Shown: piece by piece, positions 23,772 through 43,179 of the stretch
Layout of the letters: every line of letters begins with the position of its first letter
Position numbering within the stretch: position 1 is the first letter of the stretch
NCBI RefSeq assembly: GCF_028618575.1
Contig: NZ_JAQITA010000002.1
Location: forward strand, 62,001 to 126,000
Length of the DNA: 64,000 nt
Origin: Bartonella sp. ML70XJBT.G
GTDB taxonomy: Bacteria; Pseudomonadota; Alphaproteobacteria; Rhizobiales; Rhizobiaceae
Direction: 5' to 3'
Position numbers and translations under genes: made by a program
Notes under the pieces: generated by a model
Database searches by the model: none
Told to the model about the DNA's origin: nothing
The model's input: only the letters and a program-made list of their open reading frames with translations

Positions 23772-25421
23772 ATGGCACGTCAATTTATCTATCACATGGC
23801 TGGGCTTAACAAGGCTTATGGCAATAAAAAAATTTTAGAAAATATTCATTTGTCTTTTTATCCAGATGCAAAGATTGGTATTTTAGGACCCAATGGTGCA
23901 GGTAAATCAACAATTTTGCGTATTATGGCGGGGCTCGATAAGGAATATACGGGGGAAGCATGGCTTGCTGAAGGGGCACGTTGTGGCTATTTGCCGCAAG
24001 AACCTATTCTTGATACAAGCAAAGATGTGCGTGGCAATGTGATGGAAGGTGTTGCAGATAAGCAGGCAATTATCGAGCGTTATAACGAATTGATGATGAA
24101 TTATAGCGAAGAAACGGCTGATGAAAGTGCTAAGCTGCAAGATATTATTGATAGCCAGAATCTTTGGGATTTAGAAAGTCAAGTGGAAATGGCTATGGCT
24201 GCTCTTGGTTGTCCGCCTGCCAACGAGAGTGTGATAAAGCTGTCAGGAGGTGAAAAACGGCGCGTGGCTCTGTGTAAATTGCTTTTGTCAAAACCTGATT
24301 TATTGCTTTTGGATGAGCCGACAAACCATTTGGATGCCGAAACAACCGCTTGGCTTGAAAGGCATTTACGCGAATATCCCGGCGCGGTACTTTTGGTGAC
24401 CCATGATCGTTATTTTCTCGACAATGTCACAGGTTGGATTTTAGAAGTAGATCGCGGTAAAGGTATTCCTTATGAGGGAAATTATTCTGCTTATTTGGCG
24501 GCAAAAGCCAAACGTTTGGCTCAGGAAGGTCGTGAAGAGGCTGCGCGTCAGCGTGCATTGTCACGTGAGCAAGAGTGGATAGCTTCTAGCCCAAAAGGGC
24601 GCCAAGCAAAATCAAAGGCTCGGATTAAAGCCTATGATGAATTGGTGCAGGCAGCACGGGAGCGTCGTCCTGGAGAAGCGCAAATCATTATTCCTATTGG
24701 AGAGAGATTGGGGCAGGTTGTCATTGAAGTTGATCATCTTTCTAAAGCATATGGCGAGCGTGTGTTAATTGATAACCTCTCTTTTAAGCTTCCTGCTGGA
24801 GGGATTGTTGGAGTCATTGGGGCTAATGGGATGGGAAAATCTACTTTGTTTAAAATGCTGACGGGCCAAGAACAGCCAGATTCAGGACAAATACGTATTG
24901 GGGAAACAGCTTACATGAGTTACGTTGATCAGAGTCGTGATGCATTGGCAGGCGATAAAACCGTTTGGGAAGAAATTTCTGGTGGAAATGATATTATTAA
25001 ATTAGGCAAATATGAAATGAATAGTCGCGCTTATTGCGGTGCATTTAATTTTAAGGGGGCAGATCAACAGCAAAAGGTGGCAAATTTATCAGGGGGGCAG
25101 CGTAATCGCGTCCATTTGGCTAAGCTTTTAAAAGAGGGAGGCAATGTTCTTCTCCTTGACGAACCAACAAATGATCTTGACACGGAAACATTAGCTGCAT
25201 TGGAAGATGCATTAGAAAACTTTGCTGGTTGTGCGGTTATCATATCGCATGATCGTATGTTTCTTGATCGATTGGCAACGCATATTTTGGCTTTTGAAGG
25301 TGAGGGCCATGTGGAATGGTTCGAAGGTAATTTTGCTGAATATGAGGCGGATAAGATTCGCCGTTTTGGTGCAGAGGCTCTCAATGTTAAGCGTGTCGCT
25401 TATAAGCCGCTTACGCGCTAA
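23772..25421 (+). CDS. ettA: ABC-F protein, energy-dependent translational throttle EttA
   Basis: The 549-residue protein has two ATP-binding cassettes and no membrane domain. Cassette 1: Walker A GPNGAGKST (39-47), signature KLSGGEKRRVALCKLLL, Walker B LLLLDEPTNHLD. A charged linker with ARQRALSREQEWIASSPKGR follows, the EttA-type arm and interdomain linker. Cassette 2: Walker A GANGMGKST, signature NLSGGQRNRVHLAKLL, LLLDEPTNDLD. EttA binds the ribosomal E site and gates the first elongation step according to ADP/ATP. Length and linker match EttA rather than Uup or antibiotic-resistance ABC-F proteins. Confidence 0.95.
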   Translation: MARQFIYHMAGLNKAYGNKKILENIHLSFYPDAKIGILGPNGAGKSTILRIMAGLDKEYTGEAWLAEGARCGYLPQEPILDTSKDVRGNVMEGVADKQAIIERYNELMMNYSEETADESAKLQDIIDSQNLWDLESQVEMAMAALGCPPANESVIKLSGGEKRRVALCKLLLSKPDLLLLDEPTNHLDAETTAWLERHLREYPGAVLLVTHDRYFLDNVTGWILEVDRGKGIPYEGNYSAYLAAKAKRLAQEGREEAARQRALSREQEWIASSPKGRQAKSKARIKAYDELVQAARERRPGEAQIIIPIGERLGQVVIEVDHLSKAYGERVLIDNLSFKLPAGGIVGVIGANGMGKSTLFKMLTGQEQPDSGQIRIGETAYMSYVDQSRDALAGDKTVWEEISGGNDIIKLGKYEMNSRAYCGAFNFKGADQQQKVANLSGGQRNRVHLAKLLKEGGNVLLLDEPTNDLDTETLAALEDALENFAGCAVIISHDRMFLDRLATHILAFEGEGHVEWFEGNFAEYEADKIRRFGAEALNVKRVAYKPLTR

Positions 25422-25846
25422 AATTTCTTATCTTGTTTAAGCTTGATTTGAGAAAATGATGGTTGTATGCTGGTGTTTTCTTCGTGTTCAAAACAGTATG
25501 CCAGAGGGTGAATTTTGTTTTTCGCTTCTGAGATAACAAAGAAAGCTGCTATTCTTATTATATTCTTTACAGAATATTTTATCATATTTAAAAGACTGAT
25601 AATGCATAATAACATATGTAAACTTTTCTTACTTGTTACATTATCGTGGAAGGTTATAAGTTTTACAGAGAGTTTTATGATTGCTCTATAAGGTGTGTAC
25701 TATTATTTTGAGGTAATAGCACTGGGAGGAACTATTCATTTTTCATATTATCATAAAAACAATTCGCACAGTTTTATGCAACCTTATGCTTTTTGCTTGA
25801 TTTTCTATTCGTCAGAACAAATGTTTATCTGAGCTAAGGAATATTG
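25422..25846. other. AT-rich gap before the ArsR-methyltransferase gene
   Basis: About 425 bases with no credible ORF. It should contain the promoter of the next gene. A short inverted repeat, ATTCTTTACAGAAT (25559-25572), is present but not clearly an operator. Confidence 0.35.
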
Positions 25847-26785
25847 ATGAACAAAACAGTAAGTTTGGATGCAATGATTGAGTTTCTGCAAGCGATGGCA
25901 GAAGTCAATCGTTTGCGTATTTTGGCGCTGTTGTGTCAAGAAGATTTAACAATTTCTGATCTTACTTTTATCTTGGGCCAGCCCCAATCGCATATCTTAC
26001 GGCATCTCCATTTATTACGTAAGGCGCGGTTGATGACATGCTATCAGAAGGGGGGGGAGAATTATTTTAAGTTTTGTCATCATGATTTAAGCAAAGACAT
26101 TGTGATGGCTGTTATTTCAGCGTTGCCAAAGCATGACGGAATATTAGCGCGTGATTTAGAATGTTTAGTGGAGGTCAGAAAACAGCGCCAAAGAGTGGGG
26201 AAAGAGCATTTTTTACGAAAACAAGCAGAGTGGAAAGCTTTACGGTTGTCCTATATTGCCGATCAGGTAGTGGAAAGTGCTTTACTTGAAATTATTGGCA
26301 ATAAACCATTTGAGACTATGCTCACTGTTGGTATGGAAACAGATGCTGTCTCAAAATTATTTTCAGATCTTTATAGGCATAATTTTGAAGTGAAGCTTGA
26401 AAGCAATGTTTTGCATCTTTCTGTTGGGGATAAAACTTTTGATGTGGTTTTTCTTCATTGGGCTCTTTATTTTCTTGATAACCCTGAGATGGCTTTTCAT
26501 CAGGTTGCACGTGTTTTGCGCCCTCATGGGCGTTTGTTGATTGTCGATTTTGTTGGAAAAAAAGTTTCTTCTTCACATGTTTGCCATTCCCATATGTACC
26601 GTGGATTCTCAGAAGCACAAATAGAACAGTGGCTTGAAAATGCAGGGCTTATTCTAGAACACAGGCTTTGTCTTGCTCCTATGCAAAATGAAAATAATGA
26701 CGGGCTTATGCCTACAGTTTGGCTTGCCCGTGATCCACGTTTACTCATAGATGATATCAGAGATAAAAGAGTAGATTTTGCATAA
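25847..26785 (+). CDS. ArsR-type regulator fused to SAM-dependent methyltransferase
   Basis: The N-terminal 90 residues are an ArsR winged helix: MAEVNRLRILALLCQEDLTI, then FILGQPQSHILRHLHLLRKA (recognition helix) and the wing YQKGGENYFKF. Residues about 130-300 form a class I methyltransferase: LLTVGMETDAVSKLF stands at the usual SAM motif but the glycine-rich ExGxGxG is degraded; FDVVFLHWALYFLDNPEMAF and LRPHGRLLIVDF are the later motifs. ATG 25847 has AAGGA 6 bases upstream; TTG 25844 is an alternative. In many rhizobia such fusions stand next to metF or metH and control methionine genes; none is in this window. Confidence 0.85.
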   Translation: MNKTVSLDAMIEFLQAMAEVNRLRILALLCQEDLTISDLTFILGQPQSHILRHLHLLRKARLMTCYQKGGENYFKFCHHDLSKDIVMAVISALPKHDGILARDLECLVEVRKQRQRVGKEHFLRKQAEWKALRLSYIADQVVESALLEIIGNKPFETMLTVGMETDAVSKLFSDLYRHNFEVKLESNVLHLSVGDKTFDVVFLHWALYFLDNPEMAFHQVARVLRPHGRLLIVDFVGKKVSSSHVCHSHMYRGFSEAQIEQWLENAGLILEHRLCLAPMQNENNDGLMPTVWLARDPRLLIDDIRDKRVDFA

Positions 26786-27135
26786 ATTACCTTTCTTTAA
26801 CGTGTTTTATTCTCTGTTTTTTAATAAAAGCAGGAAAGGTGGGGCTTTGGTAAGTTTTTTTAAGGGGTATCGTTTTTTGCACGGGATTTACTGGTATTTA
26901 AAGAGGTAAGTATGGGGGATAACTCAAGACACTCTGACAGAGATGAGGCTTTTTGAGGACGTCATTTTGTGTGTTGATACAGTACGTGATTGATTAATAT
27001 ATTGAATTTATAAGTGATGCTTCATTGTTTTACACCTTGAGTGAAAATTGTGAATATAGGGATGTTTTCTCGTTTCAAACCTTTTGATATACAGGTTAAA
27101 GAAAGCTTAGTCAGTCCCTCATAAGGGGGTAATGT

Positions 27136-27568
27136 ATGCGTGCAACTGTTAAAGAAAGTAGTAAGATATGCTTTTTGAAGCGTTATTTTAATGCAAAAGC
27201 AAATTCACTGTTGAGGGACGATAAGTGTAATAATGTTTCTGCTTTGTCGCTTCACTTTCTGGTGAGGTGCAGGTCTTAATAGGCCTTGTATTGTCTCTTT
27301 CACAAATAAAGCTAAAAAATGAGTTTGATAGCGAAGTAAAATATCTCTCTTTAGGTAAGTAGGTCAGTGAGCAGTATCATCAGGTCAATTTTTATGAGAG
27401 GTGTGATTCTATAAAACATGAGCAGTAAAAAGTTATTGGCTCATCCTCTTCATAAAGAAAAAATACAGCGATTTTCGGCTATAGAATGACTATTGCATCA
27501 TTTTGTAAGAGAGCAAATACAAGCAGCGGTGAAGAAACATATCTCTATTCATCATTGTCTTTTATGAT
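27136..27568 (+). pseudogene. probable decayed gene(s), family unknown
   Basis: An apparent start with a good ribosome site (AAGGGGGT) at 27136 and coherent amino-acid text spread over two frames with several in-frame stops suggest a dead gene: RATVKESSKICFLKRYFNAK, then LSLSQIKLKNEFDSEVKYLS, then KKLLAHPLHKEKIQRFSAIE. I recognise no family and cannot exclude two separate remnants. Confidence 0.3.
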
Positions 27569-27988
27569 AAGGCATGGGATTTTTTTAGTTGTAAAGTAAC
27601 TTTTAACCACTCTAGATAGCAATGGTGAGTGATTCGGTATAAATGATATTTGGAAGCTTCATTTTTGTACCATCTTAAAGGGCTAAAAAGTTTATATTTT
27701 GATTGTGGTGGTAAAGGCTATTGAGCAAGTGTTTGCTGTTTTAATAGGTTTTATCTGTGCCATAGGTAAAGTGCAAAAAAATCTGCTTACACTTTAAAAC
27801 TTTTTATAATCACGGAAATTTCTAAAAGATATTGAAAATTATAATGATTGTAGATTCTTATTTCATTCTTCTTGAAATAAAATTGCTTCAAATTGGATCA
27901 TTTCAAATGTTTTTTGCCTAATTTTTTTCATTTTTAAACGATTTATAATTTTTTTATGTTTTTTTGTATGGAAGGTGATAAGAATTTC

Positions 27989-28017
27989 TTGTTGTTTAAA
28001 ACATTTTATTCCATAGC
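27989..28017 (+). promoter_or_regulatory. predicted promoter of the small RNA
   Basis: TTGTTG (27989-27994) and CATAGC (28012-28017) are separated by 17 bases. The expected transcription start, six or seven bases further, falls at about 28023-28024, just before the first hairpin of the predicted RNA. Both boxes are imperfect. Confidence 0.4.
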
Positions 28018-28023
28018 AAGAAT

Positions 28024-28142
28024 ATTGCATCGGTCACTGAGTGGTTGATGCGAGAAGACGATCGGGGAACCTCCTCCCCCCCCCCCCGCGTGGATCCCCT
28101 TGATTGTCTTGCCTGGCTGAGGAAATCCTCAGCCAGGCTTTT
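28024..28142 (+). ncRNA. predicted three-hairpin small RNA with anti-Shine-Dalgarno loop
   Basis: About 119 bases fold into three consecutive hairpins. Hairpin 1: GCATCGGTCAC (28027-28037) with GTGGTTGATGC (28041-28051), loop TGA. Hairpin 2: GACGATCGGGGA (28057-28068) with TCCCC-TT-GATTGTC (28095-28108), 12 pairs and a two-base bulge, holding a 26-base loop that contains CCTCCTCCC and a run of 12 C (28076-28087). Hairpin 3: GCCTGGCTGAGG with CCTCAGCCAGGC (28111-28138), perfect, then TTTT. CCTCCTCCC complements the ribosome-binding sequence of mRNAs and is the known motif of alphaproteobacterial trans-acting RNAs such as the alpha-r14/NfeR1 and CcsR groups. Membership in one of these is inference. 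There is no ORF over it. Confidence 0.68.
28111..28142 (+). terminator. strong intrinsic terminator of the small RNA
   Basis: A perfect 12-base-pair GC-rich stem (28111-28122 with 28127-28138) with an AAAT loop is followed directly by TTTT. This is the clearest Rho-independent terminator in the window. Confidence 0.85.
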
Positions 28143-28337
28143 AAGGGAGTAGTATTGATGTTTTGTAGAATATAGAGGGGTAGTAGTGCTGTGTAGCGTT
28201 TGAGAGGGAGAAGTTAGAAATTGTTTAGCTGGTACTGTTCTTTTTATCGATAATAAGGAGCTTGTTTTTTCTTGAAAGCCAATAGATATGAGGGGGACGA
28301 TTTTGCTTTGTGTGTTATGATCTTTAGGTAAAAGATA

Positions 28338-28712
28338 ATGAGGTCTTGCGGAAATCGTATCGTTTTTATTTTTTTTGTGTTTTCGGTTTTTGTTGCCAGC
28401 CTTTTCGTTTCTCGGAATGTTACGGCTTATCGCTTTTTGTCCGATCGCTCTTTTTCTTCTTCTCAAGTTAATATCACAGAGGAACAGCTTTTAGAAAAAT
28501 TTGCAGTATCTTTTCCCGATGTTATTATGCAACTCTCTAAGCTGAAGCCGGAGCAACAAAAAAAACTGATTGAACAAGTGCGCCATGACATGATTGCTTT
28601 TGCTTCTGCAAGTGGTCAAAGCAGTGAACAGGCTCAGAAATTAGGTGGAATTGTTGCAGTTATTCTATCAAAAGCGATTTCTCATCCTTCCATTGTAGAT
28701 ACTTACTTTTAG
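28338..28712 (+). CDS. small exported hypothetical protein
   Basis: The 124-residue frame starts at ATG 28338. Residues about 8-28 (IVFIFFVFSVFVASLFV) form a signal peptide with likely cleavage after VTA near residue 30. The mature part is helical and soluble: FSSSQVNITEEQLLEKFAVS, DVIMQLSKLKPEQQKKLIEQ, then SASGQSSEQAQKLGGIVAVI. Gln- and Lys-rich helices suggest a small periplasmic helical protein. I do not recognise a family. An AGG lies about 13 bases upstream. It follows the small RNA by 195 bases, but the terminator between them argues for separate transcription. Confidence 0.62.
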   Translation: MRSCGNRIVFIFFVFSVFVASLFVSRNVTAYRFLSDRSFSSSQVNITEEQLLEKFAVSFPDVIMQLSKLKPEQQKKLIEQVRHDMIAFASASGQSSEQAQKLGGIVAVILSKAISHPSIVDTYF

Positions 28713-29549
28713 TCATTTCTTTCACATTATATATTTACAATTAACTTCATAAAGTTTTCTCACATTTTTTGTGTTTTTTGAAAAGCATGCGAACGTGTGG
28801 TCTGTTTGGTATGTTTCCTGAAGGTAGGGGTAAGTATTAGAGATAAACGGATTATAATATACGCTTGAGATATTGAGAGAGGGATAGACGTTATAAATTT
28901 TTATTCAGAGGATATTGAGATTCTTTGTGCTGTTTCTTTATAGAATAAAAAACAGAAAAAAATGATTACGAAGCTGTGTTATAGGCTCAAAAGTGGGTGT
29001 GTTGGTAGTACTCAGGTAAATTCCATTAGAATGATCGATTTTTCTTACTGGCTTTTTTAGCATAAGTTTTCTGCCGTGGGTGTTTAGCGGTTTGTAGGGC
29101 AAGTGGGTAACGGTTTTTCTCTCTCATGAAATATTTTGCAATATTAAGAGATGCTCAGTGAAAGATTTTTGTGCTGTGTCGCTTTTTGTAATGAGCAATT
29201 GATTTTAATGAAAGCTTTTAGAAATCTTTTATAAGAACAAGCAGCGGTATTTTAAATGCTGTTTTTTTATTAAAAGTAAGTCTTATGTTAGATGAATAAA
29301 AAAGGGTAATCTCTATCATATTTTTAGTATATTTAAATCTCTGATAGGGTTTCTTTGTATTTTTATATTTTATAAAATAAAGGAATATAGCTTATTTGTT
29401 AAGAGATTTTCTTTTATTAGGAAAAAATATCTTGAAATTGTCTTAATATTTTCATTTTCAAGCCGCTCTTTAGCTTTTTTTTTCTGTAAAGTACATCGGC
29501 AAAGTCATTATGGCTAGGATTTAAGAATGTCTTAATAAAGAGAAAGAAG
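28713..29549. other. AT-rich non-coding gap
   Basis: About 840 bases before the lytic transglycosylase gene. There are short open pieces (for example NFYSEDIEILCAVS near 28900) that do not join into a gene. From 29270 to 29480 it is very AT-rich and likely carries the promoter of the next gene. No structured element stands out. Confidence 0.4.
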
Positions 29550-30059
29550 ATGCAATTTTTGAAAGTCTTTTTAAATGCAGCATTTGCTGTATTTTTTGTA
29601 TTCGATGTCAGTTTTTCTCATACGGTCTTCAATGTTGCAGGATCAAGTGAAAACTCAGTGAATATTGCTCCTAAGATTTCTGTGCGTCCTTATGAGTCCC
29701 TTATTCAGAAATTTGCAAATAAGCATAATGTTCCTGTTAATTTGGCACATGCTGTTGTAAGAGTTGAAAGTAATTATAAGGCCCGTACAAAGGGGGCAGC
29801 TGGTGAAATAGGCTTGATGCAAATTAAACCTTCTACTGCGCGAGGGTTGGGTTTTAATGGTTCTGTACAAGATCTTTACGATCCTGCGACTAATCTTGAA
29901 TATGGGATGCGTTATTTGGCACGGGCATATAAACTCAGTGGTGGAAATACCTGTGGTACGATCTTGAAATATAATGCAGGTCATGGGGCAAAGAAAATGA
30001 ACGCCATTTCAGCAAAATATTGCTCAAAAGTAAAAACTTATCTGGCTTCATTAAAATAA
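29550..30059 (+). CDS. lytic transglycosylase, SLT domain
   Basis: The 169-residue exported protein has an N-terminal signal segment (about 3-25) and a single Slt70-type domain. Catalytic Glu73 is in AHAVVRVESNYKA, followed by the family motifs GEIGLMQIKPSTARGLGF, NLEYGMRYLARAY and ILKYNAGHG. It should cleave the MurNAc-GlcNAc bond in peptidoglycan and form anhydro-muropeptides. Small single-domain enzymes of this kind act in wall turnover or open gaps for secretion machines; no secretion genes are nearby. AAAGAGAAAG precedes the ATG. Confidence 0.9.
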   Translation: MQFLKVFLNAAFAVFFVFDVSFSHTVFNVAGSSENSVNIAPKISVRPYESLIQKFANKHNVPVNLAHAVVRVESNYKARTKGAAGEIGLMQIKPSTARGLGFNGSVQDLYDPATNLEYGMRYLARAYKLSGGNTCGTILKYNAGHGAKKMNAISAKYCSKVKTYLASLK

Positions 30060-30146
30060 AAAGAATCTTGAAAGTGATGCATTTGCTCTAAAATCTCTTG
30101 GAGATACTATTTTCACTTCATGAAAAATGTTTTATAAGTACCATGT

Positions 30147-30540
30147 CAGTCGGCTGGGCAGCCGCGCTTGTCTAATACTTAAAGGCGACAGGTGAGGAAA
30201 GTCCGGGCTCCACGGAAAAACGGTGCCGGGTAACACCCGGCGGGGGCGACCCTAGGGAAAGTGCCACAGAAAGTAAACCGCCTATTTTTATAGGTAAGGG
30301 TGAAAGGGTGGGGTAAGAGCCCACCGCGCATTCAGTAATGAATGTGGCAAGGTAAACCCCACCGGGAGCAAGACCAAATAGAAATGACGCGCAAGACTTA
30401 ACTTGCAGCTGGTTTCCAAGCGAGTCATTCGGGTAGGTTGCACGAGGCGGATGGTAACATCCGTCCCAGATGAATGGTTGCCATATAGAGTGTAAGCTTT
30501 ATGATACAGAACCCGGCTTATAGGCCGACTGATCTTTTTT
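30147..30540 (+). ncRNA. rnpB: RNase P RNA (type A)
   Basis: The RNA subunit of RNase P, which matures tRNA 5' ends. The conserved core is plain: GAGGAAAGTCCGGGCTCC near 30193, GGGTAACACCCGGCG near 30229, GTGCCACAGAAAGTAAACCG near 30261, GGTAAGGGTGAAAGGGTG near 30292, and the 3' core AGATGAATGGTTGCCA near 30469. The ends pair to form P1: CAGTCGG (30147-30153) with CCGACTG (30525-30531), and TTTTTT follows at 30535-30540 as terminator. The mature RNA should be about 385 bases. Confidence 0.95.
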
Positions 30541-30769
30541 GACTGAATGCGTTTTATCTCATTGATTATTGGACAAAATTTACGTGGTACGAAAACTTAT
30601 TCTGTCGCAATCCATGGGTGCTTTTAGAGTGTATACTTTAAAAAGAGCCTTTTAAAAAATCATAACATTTCTTTAAGTATAATGCGTTAGGATATGTGCT
30701 GGACTAACTTTGGCTTTATGTTCTTTCATTATGAAAGTTGAAGTTCTGGTTATTCTAATATCAGTTTCC

Positions 30770-31816
30770 ATGAAAGAGCTGTTTATTGTAAATAAGCATA
30801 AATCAAGACGGATTATTTTGACAAAACAAGGTCACAGAGCTGAACGCCATATTCCAGTGTTGTTACAGCCAGTTTTAGCTGGGCTTGCGCCATTGGATGG
30901 GGCAAGAGTGATTGATGGCACCTTTGGTGCTGGTGGTTATACGCGTGCTTTGTTAACTGCAGGTGCACAGGTTATTGCTCTTGATCGTGATCCTTATGCT
31001 ATTGCTGCAGGACAATCACTGGTTGATGAATTTTTTCCACGGCTTCATTTAGTGCAGATGGAATTTTCAAGGTTGGAGAATGTTGTTGAAGAGAAGGTGG
31101 ATGCTGTTATTTTGGATATTGGTGTTTCTTCAATGCAGCTTGATGAGGCTGAGAGAGGTTTTTCTTTTCAAAAAGATGGTCCATTAGATATGCGAATGGC
31201 TCAGACGGGTTTTACTGCTTGTGATGTTGTCAATCGTTTAAAAAGTAATGAATTAGCGCGCATTTTTAAAATATTAGGAGAAGAACGTTATGCGGGGCGA
31301 ATTGCACGAATGATTGAAAAACGTCGCTCTATCCAGCCTTTTTTGCGTACTGGTGACCTTGCCCATGCCATTGAAGCGTTGGTGGGGTGCAAAAGTGGAG
31401 AGCGCATTCATCCTGCAACACGTGTATTTCAGGCTCTTCGCATTTATGTGAACGATGAAATTGGTGAACTCGCGCGTGGTTTATTTGCTGCTGAACGCGT
31501 TTTGAAACCAGGAGGACGTTTGGGTGTTGTGAGTTTTCATTCTCTTGAAGATCGTATGGTCAAAAGATTTTTTTCTGCGCGTTCAGGAGAGAGGGTGAGA
31601 TCACGCTATCTTCCTGAAATAGAGACAGTTCCAGCAACATTTTTTCCTTTGTTTAAAGGTGTGATTACTGCAAGTGAAGAAGAGCTTCAAAAAAATCCTC
31701 GTTCACGTTCTGCAAAGTTGCGTATTGGTGTACGTACACAGGCGGAGAGTCTTGCAACTGACATGAAATTATTTGGTTTTGCAGAAATTGCCAGTTTTGA
31801 GGGTGGCAAGAAATGA
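30770..31816 (+). CDS. rsmH: 16S rRNA (cytosine-1402-N4) methyltransferase
   Basis: RsmH (MraW) methylates C1402 in the ribosomal decoding centre. The N-terminal [15 protein letters not shown] leads into the SAM-binding [13 protein letters not shown], then [27 protein letters not shown], the family-specific helical insert, and [20 protein letters not shown] near the end. Start choice is uncertain: TTG 30710, ATG 30731 and ATG 30770 are all in frame without a clear ribosome site; I take 30770 (348 residues), closest to family length. It is the first gene of the dcw cluster here; mraZ is absent. Its end overlaps ftsL by four bases. Confidence 0.93.
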
Positions 31817-32217
31817 CAGTTTTTCGCACATTTGATATGATTTTAGTGATCATTATGATTTGTATGGCAGGTCTTACTTATAAGGTAAAATATGATGTCC
31901 AAAGGCGAATGAGCGAAATCCGCTATCTTGAACATGAAATTGCTGCAGCAAAAAATACGGTGAGTTTGTTGCGTGCTGAGTGGGCTGTAATGATAGAGCC
32001 TTCACGTATGGGAAAACTTGCAAAACGTTATCAAAAAGAGCTTGGTTTAGAGATTATACAGCCTCGCCAAATCGTAGAGTTTAAAGATATTCCAATGCGT
32101 GTACATGATCCCATTGAAGAAGTGATTAAACAAAATATTTTGGAGGAAAGGCGAGATATTTGGGCGAATAATCGGACTTCTGAGGCCAATAACGTTGTGC
32201 AAAAAGGCATGCGGTGA
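31813..32217 (+). CDS. ftsL: cell division protein FtsL
   Basis: A 134-residue bitopic membrane protein with one membrane segment (about 8-26, [15 protein letters not shown]), then a coiled coil ([20 protein letters not shown]) with heptads that pair with FtsB, and the common ...[17 protein letters not shown] end. FtsL with FtsB and FtsQ links early and late divisome proteins and activates FtsW/FtsI. Sequence similarity in this family is low, so assignment rests on topology plus position between rsmH and ftsI. ATGA overlap with rsmH and TGATG overlap with ftsI show translational coupling. The C-terminal 25 residues look disordered. Confidence 0.88.
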
Positions 32218-41768: not shown

Positions 41769-43179
41769 TATAGGTGTGATCCATTTTGTTGGAATCGGTG
41801 GTATTGGCATGAGTGGAATTGCGGAGGTTTTTCATAATTTTGGCTATCAAGTTCAAGGATCAGATCAGGTTGATAGCGCAAATGTAGAGCGTTTACGGAA
41901 AAAAGGAATTACTATTCATATCGGTCATCATCCTAAAAATTTAGGGAATGCAGAGGTTGTTGTATTTTCTACAGCCATTAAAAAAACAAATCCTGAATAT
42001 ATTGCTGCGAAAGAACGGCATTTACCACTGGTGAGGCGTGCAGAAATGCTCGCGGAGCTGATGCGTTTTCGTCGGGCAATTGCTGTTGGAGGTACACATG
42101 GTAAAACGACAACCACATCCATGATAGCAGCGCTTCTTGATGCTGGTCGTTTTGATCCAGTCGTCATTAATGGTGGTATTATTAATGCTTATGGCACCAA
42201 TGCTCGTATGGGGGAGGGTGATTGGATGGTTGTTGAGGCGGATGAGAGTGACGGTACATTTTTAAAATTGCCTGCTGATATTGCGGTTATTACCAATATT
42301 GATGCTGAGCATTTGGATCATTATGGAAATTTTGCGGCTCTGCGTCAGGCTTTCCGGAAGTTTATAGAAAATGTTCCTTTTTATGGCTTTGCTGTTTTAT
42401 GCCTTGACCATCCAGAGGTTCAATCGTTGGCTAGCCGTATTGATGATCGTTGGGTGATTACTTATGGCGCAAATCCACAAGCAGATGTCCGTTTTTTTAA
42501 TCTTTCGATGGATGGTCAAAAAACGCATTTTGATGTTCTTATTCGTTCACGCAAGACAGGGAAAAAGACTGAGTTGAAAAATTTGACTTTGCCTATGTCT
42601 GGGCAGCATAATGTTTCTAATGCAACGGCGGCAATTGCTATTGCTCATGAACTTGGTATTGCAAATGAAGCTATAAAAAAAGGACTCGCAGAGTTTGCTG
42701 GAGTAAAACGGCGTTTTACGCAAACAGGAAGTTGGCATGGCGTTGAAATATTTGATGATTATGGGCATCATCCTGTTGAAATAAAGGCTGTTTTACGTGC
42801 TGCGCGTGAGAGTGCAAAAGGGCGCGTGGTTGCCATTGCACAACCTCATCGTTATTCACGTTTGTCTCATTTATTTGATGATTTTGCTGCTTGTTTTAAT
42901 GATGCAGATACAGTGCTCATTGCACCCGTGTATGCAGCTGGTGAAGAGCCAATTGCTGGTTTTGGTGCTAGAGAATTGGTAGAACATATTAAAATGGCTG
43001 GTCATCGTGATGTGCGTTTGATTCACGGTCTGGAAGATGTTGTTTCTTTTGTCTCTACATTTGCACAGTCTGGGGATTATGTTGTTTTTCTTGGTGCTGG
43101 CAATATCACACAATGGGCTTGTGCGTTGCCTCATCAGTTGGCGGTACTTGATGGAAATGATGAACTTTCAACAGATTGA
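41752..43179 (+). CDS. murC: UDP-MurNAc:L-alanine ligase
   Basis: MurC adds L-alanine, the first residue of the stem peptide. The N-terminal [20 protein letters not shown] binds the nucleotide sugar; the P-loop [13 protein letters not shown] lies near 115; [14 protein letters not shown] and [13 protein letters not shown] are the active-site segments; [12 protein letters not shown] and the C-terminal QPHRYSR complete the family set. ATG 41752 has GGAG seven bases upstream; TTG 41749 is a less likely start. It overlaps murG by 17 bases and murB by 23. Confidence 0.96.

Follow-up and report, generated by a model that had tools for sequence, protein, structure and literature searches.

The locus and its predicted RNA

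The window that we analysed is a stretch of 64,000 nucleotides from Bartonella sp. ML70XJBT.G, at C12:62001-126000 of the assembly that we call G000. At 28024..28142 it carries an element that we interpret as a gene for a small RNA (sRNA) and that is present in one copy in G000. Its limits are the predicted start and the end of the terminator, and they are supported by the fold, by covariance models and by a drop in conservation downstream. The RNA, and the hairpins, motifs and promoter-like elements discussed below, are all on the plus strand. The predicted fold of 28024-28142 has an energy of -60.7 kcal/mol (z -6.55), and none of 200 shuffles was as good.

As in the original prediction, the fold consists of three consecutive hairpins with hardly any spare base between them, although their sizes agree only in part. 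Hairpin 1 (28025..28053) has 13 predicted pairs, G-U pairs included, and not the 11 first proposed; it is the most variable domain, and is short or absent in several copies from the metF-bearing genomes described below. Hairpin 2 (28055..28110) is indeed present, but with 16 pairs and a C-rich apical loop of 20 bases (28072-28091) in place of 12 pairs and a loop of 26. The intrinsic terminator (28111..28142) is as first described, with a 12-pair hairpin at 28111-28138 followed by TTTT at 28139-28142. The string CCTCCTCCC, which had been placed in the central loop, is found exactly, at 28070..28078, but its first two C residues are paired in the predicted fold.

An ArsR-methyltransferase gene lies at 25844-26785 in the window, and there is no long open frame in the 1.2 kb between it and the RNA. 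On the other side rnpB, the gene for RNase P RNA, is at 30146-30536, 2 kb downstream of the sRNA. A coding gene at the sRNA locus itself was considered and rejected, as the length of the C-tract in hairpin 2 varies between species and such a change would shift any reading frame. A match to Rfam BASRCII26 on the minus strand was taken as chance, having 17 bits against a cut-off of 218.

Distribution in Bartonella and support for the fold

The element is present in all 71 Bartonella genomes. R1, a covariance model built from 17 copies, finds it in 66 of them, and R2, a wider covariance model that was applied to the stretches adjoining metF in the five genomes without an R1 match, finds it in those five (G021, G043, G073, G074 and G081, at 64 to 65 bits). 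A DNA search gave the element in 17 of 41 genomes, all 17 being Bartonella, and an exact-pattern scan of one genome per species, covering 84,980 species, gave 36 matches, again all in Bartonella.

In an alignment of 53 copies, which was fitted to the covariance model and is hence biased towards it, 96.9% of cells are paired as against 88.9% in shuffles, and double-sided changes are found at 31 of 40 pairs as against 15.2. By stem the pairs with double changes are 10 of 12 model pairs in hairpin 1, 12 of 15 in hairpin 2 and 9 of 13 in the terminator. The covariation is above that of all 500 shuffles and of all slid controls, the latter dropping to 33-49%. However a 17-row MAFFT alignment, made with no fitting to structure, gives a result of the same sign (97.8% paired against 94.4%, and 12 pairs against 6.2). 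Alignment A3 of the RNA copies excludes 21 short antisense matches to the terminator, together with L046, L030 and L119. Stems broken in related species without compensating changes had been named as one finding that would refute the prediction; the prediction came through this test, with compensating changes in all three stems.

Promoter-like block and terminator

Ahead of the predicted start there is a conserved block, AAGAATTTCTTGTTGTTTAAA (27980..28000), with 99% identity to the window across 17 aligned Bartonella genomes. Inside it a near-palindrome, AAGAATTTCTT, spans a -35-like element CTTGTT (27988..27993), which is 98% conserved in these genomes; the alphaproteobacterial -35 consensus is quoted as CTTGAC in the accessible part of PMC7717549. 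The -10-like element CCATAG (28011..28016) is 90% conserved, and the 17-base spacer between the two 93%. Further upstream an A/T-rich segment (27912-27970) is 81% conserved. The RNA body itself is 83% conserved in the same 17 genomes, as against 34% just 3' of the terminator.

A generic scan with the sigma-70 consensus did not report the CTTGTT/CCATAG pair, and a generic terminator scan, at its T-rich cut-off, did not report the terminator at 28111-28142, so the support for both is their conservation in the 17 genomes. This supports the promoter-like pair with 17-base spacing that had been put forward, and with it the proposal that the sRNA gene stands alone and has a promoter-like block and a terminator of its own. 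From the conserved fold, the covariation, the conservation of the -35 block and the drop after the terminator, we conclude that the element is very probably a genuine sRNA gene, present in a single copy. On comparison of the genome sequences the element is conserved, as are its stems, its promoter-like block and its terminator, and it is present throughout the genus.

Association with metF

A metF gene (PF02219) was matched in 14 of the 71 genomes, comprising nine in which the RNA has an R1 score of 33 to 51 bits, together with the five in which R2 found it. We take these to be insect-associated Bartonella lineages. In 12 of the 14 the RNA follows metF on the same strand, at a distance of 0.2-1.9 kb downstream. 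The exceptions are G006, where the two are on separate contigs, and G012, where they are 18 kb apart on opposite strands. The usual arrangement is what one would see if the element were a relic of the end of a metF transcript, either a cis-acting terminator or a 3'UTR product. However the RNA is kept in the 57 genomes without a metF match, where it scores at least 85 bits with R1, the -35 block is almost invariant at the 99% given above, and the constraint on pairing extends beyond the terminator to hairpins 1 and 2. We thus regard a metF relic as very unlikely, and continue to treat the element as an sRNA gene in its own right.

In four metF loci that were read (L115, L116, L117 and L121) the ArsR-methyltransferase gene precedes metF, and it is retained in the window genome although metF is unmatched there. 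Seven of the metF-bearing genomes (G006, G007, G008, G012, G014, G018 and G021) also have sub-threshold matches to the Rfam family ar35.

The C-rich loop

The loop of hairpin 2 includes a tract of 12 C residues (28076..28087), the longest run of G or C in the part of G000 examined (861 kb), where the next-longest is 9. In B. bacilliformis KC583 (G044) the tract, at C1:989831, has 14 residues, and no other G/C homopolymer in the readable part of that genome is longer than 9 (about 12,700 bases being masked and the count tallied over overlapping tiles). Over the 53 aligned copies the longest C run spans 6 to 14. The 3' side of the loop, with the adjoining stem, is the conserved sequence CCCCCGCGTGGATCCC (28083..28098), which contains CCCCCGC, and CCCCCGC is found in all 53 copies. 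The longer string CCTCCTCCC is in 33 of the 53 and is missing from the other 20, including all 8 rows from metF-bearing genomes, in which the loop is GAGACCCCCCGC or a near form. It is also in 31 of 37 sequences (the window and 36 named genomes), all of which were pattern-selected, and is not significant alone, having 17 genomic places as against 19 for the reversed pattern. With CCCCCGC in every aligned copy and CCTCCTCCC in only part of the species, what stays constant is a C-tract with GC directly after it.

The length of the tract differs between close relatives: in B. bacilliformis it is 7 in Ver097 and 14 in KC583, in B. tribocorum 12 in C635 and 10 in L103, and in B. queenslandensis both 11 and 12 are found. 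These differences may be homopolymer assembly errors. A more speculative reading, which we find doubtful, is that the targeting loop of the sRNA is a slippage-prone homopolymer, retained genus-wide while its length drifts, and that this gives phase variation of a trans-acting sRNA. If that were true, the length of the C-tract would be a heritable and fast-switching dial for the strength of Shine-Dalgarno pairing, and phase variation would be acting on a trans-acting sRNA and not on a surface gene. Whether homopolymer slippage can tune an sRNA is a testable question that the long C-tract raises.

Searches outside Bartonella

We found no homologues outside Bartonella in samples of the order and of the family, which were searched with stricter filters and leave some genera outside; the matches there are weak. 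At E<=0.1, R1 gave matches in 4 of the 297 genomes of the order sample, and two of the four are Bartonella. In the family sample R2 matched 12 of 297 genomes at E<=0.01, with five Bartonella, and R3, also a covariance model, matched 16 of 394 at E<=0.01, with eight. No Bartonella is among the unmatched genomes listed in these samples. The best places of seven non-Bartonella genomes matched by R2 were read, and none has a C-tract loop; most of these seven matches rest on the terminator-like hairpin. The eight non-Bartonella genomes matched by R3 are G394, G457 and G602, whose places were among those read for R2, G637, whose best place is a new one, and G556, G565, G690 and G738.

Four other copies of the RNA (L115, L117, L118 and L126) are unmatched in Rfam at the gathering score. 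The RNA is very probably a real sRNA of the C-rich-loop kind, with an unusually long C-tract, and on sequence grounds it forms its own family. It would then be a genus-wide Bartonella sRNA gene with no match to an Rfam family in these searches.

Proposed mode of action

We suggest that the gene would be transcribed from its own sigma-70-like promoter, with transcription ending at the intrinsic terminator. The unpaired C-tract of hairpin 2, with its constant core CCCCCGC and in many species CCUCCUCCC, would act in trans by pairing with the G-rich Shine-Dalgarno regions of several mRNAs, and translation would mostly be blocked at initiation, as by other sRNAs with C-rich loops. A Bartonella-specific trans-acting sRNA of ~120 nt, with a C-rich loop that pairs with G-rich ribosome-binding sites, is in our judgement the best explanation, and a reasonably probable one. 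We have a similar, moderate confidence that pairing of the C-tract with G-rich initiation regions is its main action, and if it is, then repression is likely rather than activation.

A stable stem exposing a C-rich loop is a feature of trans-acting sRNAs of this kind, and is seen here in the predicted fold and in the alignment. As described in the accessible parts of the papers concerned, GsrN of Caulobacter has six tandem C residues in an exposed loop that recognise G-rich mRNA sites (PMC5869019), and PmaR of Agrobacterium binds its targets through the C-rich loop of a spoon-like stem (PMC6234868). By analogy with these two, the C loop of the Bartonella RNA should pair with G-rich sites in mRNA.

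Predicted pairing was looked at in KC583. Of its 904 Shine-Dalgarno windows, 229 pair with the window loop at <= -8 kcal/mol, as against 82, 125 and 113 in three control windows. However the reversed loop does as well, with 239 of 904 Shine-Dalgarno windows against 134, 161 and 167 in the control windows, so that a long C-rich loop favours Shine-Dalgarno regions whatever its base order and the preference is one of composition. The loop of the metF-bearing genomes gives 174 in Shine-Dalgarno windows as against 107 upstream and 172 and 180 in coding windows, and so has no preference over coding sequence. The sharpest preference is that of CCUCCUCCC alone, with 124 against 34, 39 and 26.

Conserved targets were sought by comparing 861 kb of G000 with KC583, in 347 gene pairs, and the result did not clearly exceed that of reversed or shuffled loops. 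The overlap in the top 10% of targets is 10 of 34 both for the loop and for the core, against 7 or 8 for four controls, and the rank correlation over these gene pairs is 0.24 for the loop and 0.34 for the core, with the controls at 0.24 to 0.49. The top target scores too are matched by shuffled loops. The best-scoring pair involves the leader of an ABC-transporter ATPase gene, and its conservation seems to come from overlap with the coding end of the upstream gene. In KC583 the flagellar cluster provides 6 of the 53 top genes, where 1.9 are expected, but the number is 2 to 9 with the reversed loop and with eight shuffled ones, and the enrichment shows only that those leaders are G-rich. The G-rich leaders of this cluster are at 1155000-1202000 in KC583. 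In five genes there is a run of G6 within -25 to -4, and G6 is found in the Shine-Dalgarno regions of a motA-like gene, a flgK-like gene and one neighbouring gene, the names being given by sequence reading.

The C-tract loop could instead be a site for a C-binding protein, or a sponge that titrates G-rich RNA, with no pairing to mRNA. The small effect of base order on predicted mRNA pairing would fit with this, as would the constancy of CCCCCGC. We consider it unlikely, as GsrN and PmaR use their C-rich loops to pair with mRNA in the accounts available to us (PMC5869019, PMC6234868), and we retain mRNA pairing by the C-tract as the preferred reading.

Relationship to the alpha-r14 and CcsR RNAs

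The RNA had at first been likened to the alpha-r14/NfeR1 and CcsR RNAs, the 'cuckoo' family. There are real likenesses, as alpha-r14 (NfeR1, RF02344) shares with it the three hairpins, a length of about 120 nt and a C-rich unpaired motif complementary to the Shine-Dalgarno sequence, and the window copy has an exact CCTCCTCCC. CcsR1-4 of Rhodobacter bear CCUCCUCCC. These are four RNAs processed from a transcript that includes a DUF1127 gene, as described in the part of PMC10253847 available, whereas the Bartonella RNA has one copy in G000, with no tandem copies as in CcsR/CIN1 loci, and a Pfam scan of 15 ORFs, from a total of 43 with >=40 aa in 24000-32000, found no DUF1127. NfeR1-type RNAs are described as having CCUCCUCCC in all three hairpins (PMC10746234 and PMC7143759, in part), whereas the Bartonella RNA has at most one, in hairpin 2 with two of its C residues paired, and the part that is constant is CCCCCGC, CCTCCTCCC being absent from the 20 copies referred to above.

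The ar14 covariance search, for which RF02344 was in the library, left the RNA unmatched both at the gathering score and up to E 10. RF02344 does have matches elsewhere, in 25 of the 37 Bartonella genomes searched (G000 and 24 of the 36 others), but at loci distinct from this one. In G000 they are at C33:91934-92051 and C55:108349-108466, with none at C12; these are two identical copies of 118 bases, with E 6e-5 and below the gathering cut-off, on the minus strand of the extracted loci, and with the loops UUUUCCUCCUAA and UUCUCCUCCCAA. Matches above gathering were found in eight other Bartonella genomes, all of them metF-bearing. Six ar14-matching loci were read, of which five have CCUCC-bearing loops and the weaker match in G014 does not, and R2 matches nothing in 6 loci taken around ar14 matches. 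Kinship with alpha-r14/NfeR1 or CcsR is thus not supported, and we think membership of that family extremely unlikely.

Comparison with published sRNAs

Published candidates are among 57 novel intergenic sRNAs of B. bacilliformis, of which BbsR9 was studied and is conserved in other Bartonella (PMC7717549, of which part was available). The genome of that paper agrees with G044, in which the intron of tRNA-Arg(CCU) is found at the published coordinates. The RNA could be BbsR9 (BB092), or a different member of the 57, in which case its expression there would already be known. The description in that paper gives BbsR9 a terminator and a predicted sigma-70 promoter, with GC-rich seeds lying in a large stem-loop, and counts it among five sRNAs that are widespread in Bartonella. 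The KC583 copy of our RNA, at 989778-989900, would agree with the number BB092 if the numbers run in map order (BB009 is at 42404-42711), and the best sites of the gcvT, nuoF and trmD leaders are at CCCCCGCG. However the published BbsR9 targets are not highly placed in a rough energy ranking, with gcvT at 70 of 1064 (scored by hand, relative to a neighbouring start codon), nuoF at 393 of 1063 and ftsH at 591 of 1063, while trmD, reported as non-binding in PMC7717549, ranks 76. We thus hold the identification as possible, but less likely than not. In the publications covered, mostly open literature without supplementary tables, we found none that describes the RNA under a recognisable name.

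With regard to known systems, the likeness to BbsR9 is that of a Bartonella-wide sRNA with GC-rich seeds (PMC7717549, in part), and the two may be the same gene. The Brt RNAs of B. henselae are different, being longer at 194-203 nt and preceding regulator genes in the account available (PMC5387305). GsrN and PmaR, compared by description only, resemble our RNA in the C-run in an exposed loop of the first and the stem with C-rich loop of the second. GsrN differs in having its own C-rich loop at the 5' end and a gene tied to the general stress response (PMC5869019, in part), and PmaR in its range, which the accessible part of PMC6234868 limits to Agrobacterium and a single strain of Rhizobium. 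BbsR14, with two TTCCTCCTAA loops as described in part of PMC7717549, resembles the ar14-like RNA and not the C-tract RNA, and as the ar14-like loops of G000 fit the TTCCTCCTAA motif, BbsR14 is probably the Bartonella ar14 RNA. The locus of the C-tract RNA is not that of the ar14-like RNAs in these genomes, which sets this RNA apart from ar14, and two kinds of RNA with C-rich loops would thus coexist in the same Bartonella genomes.
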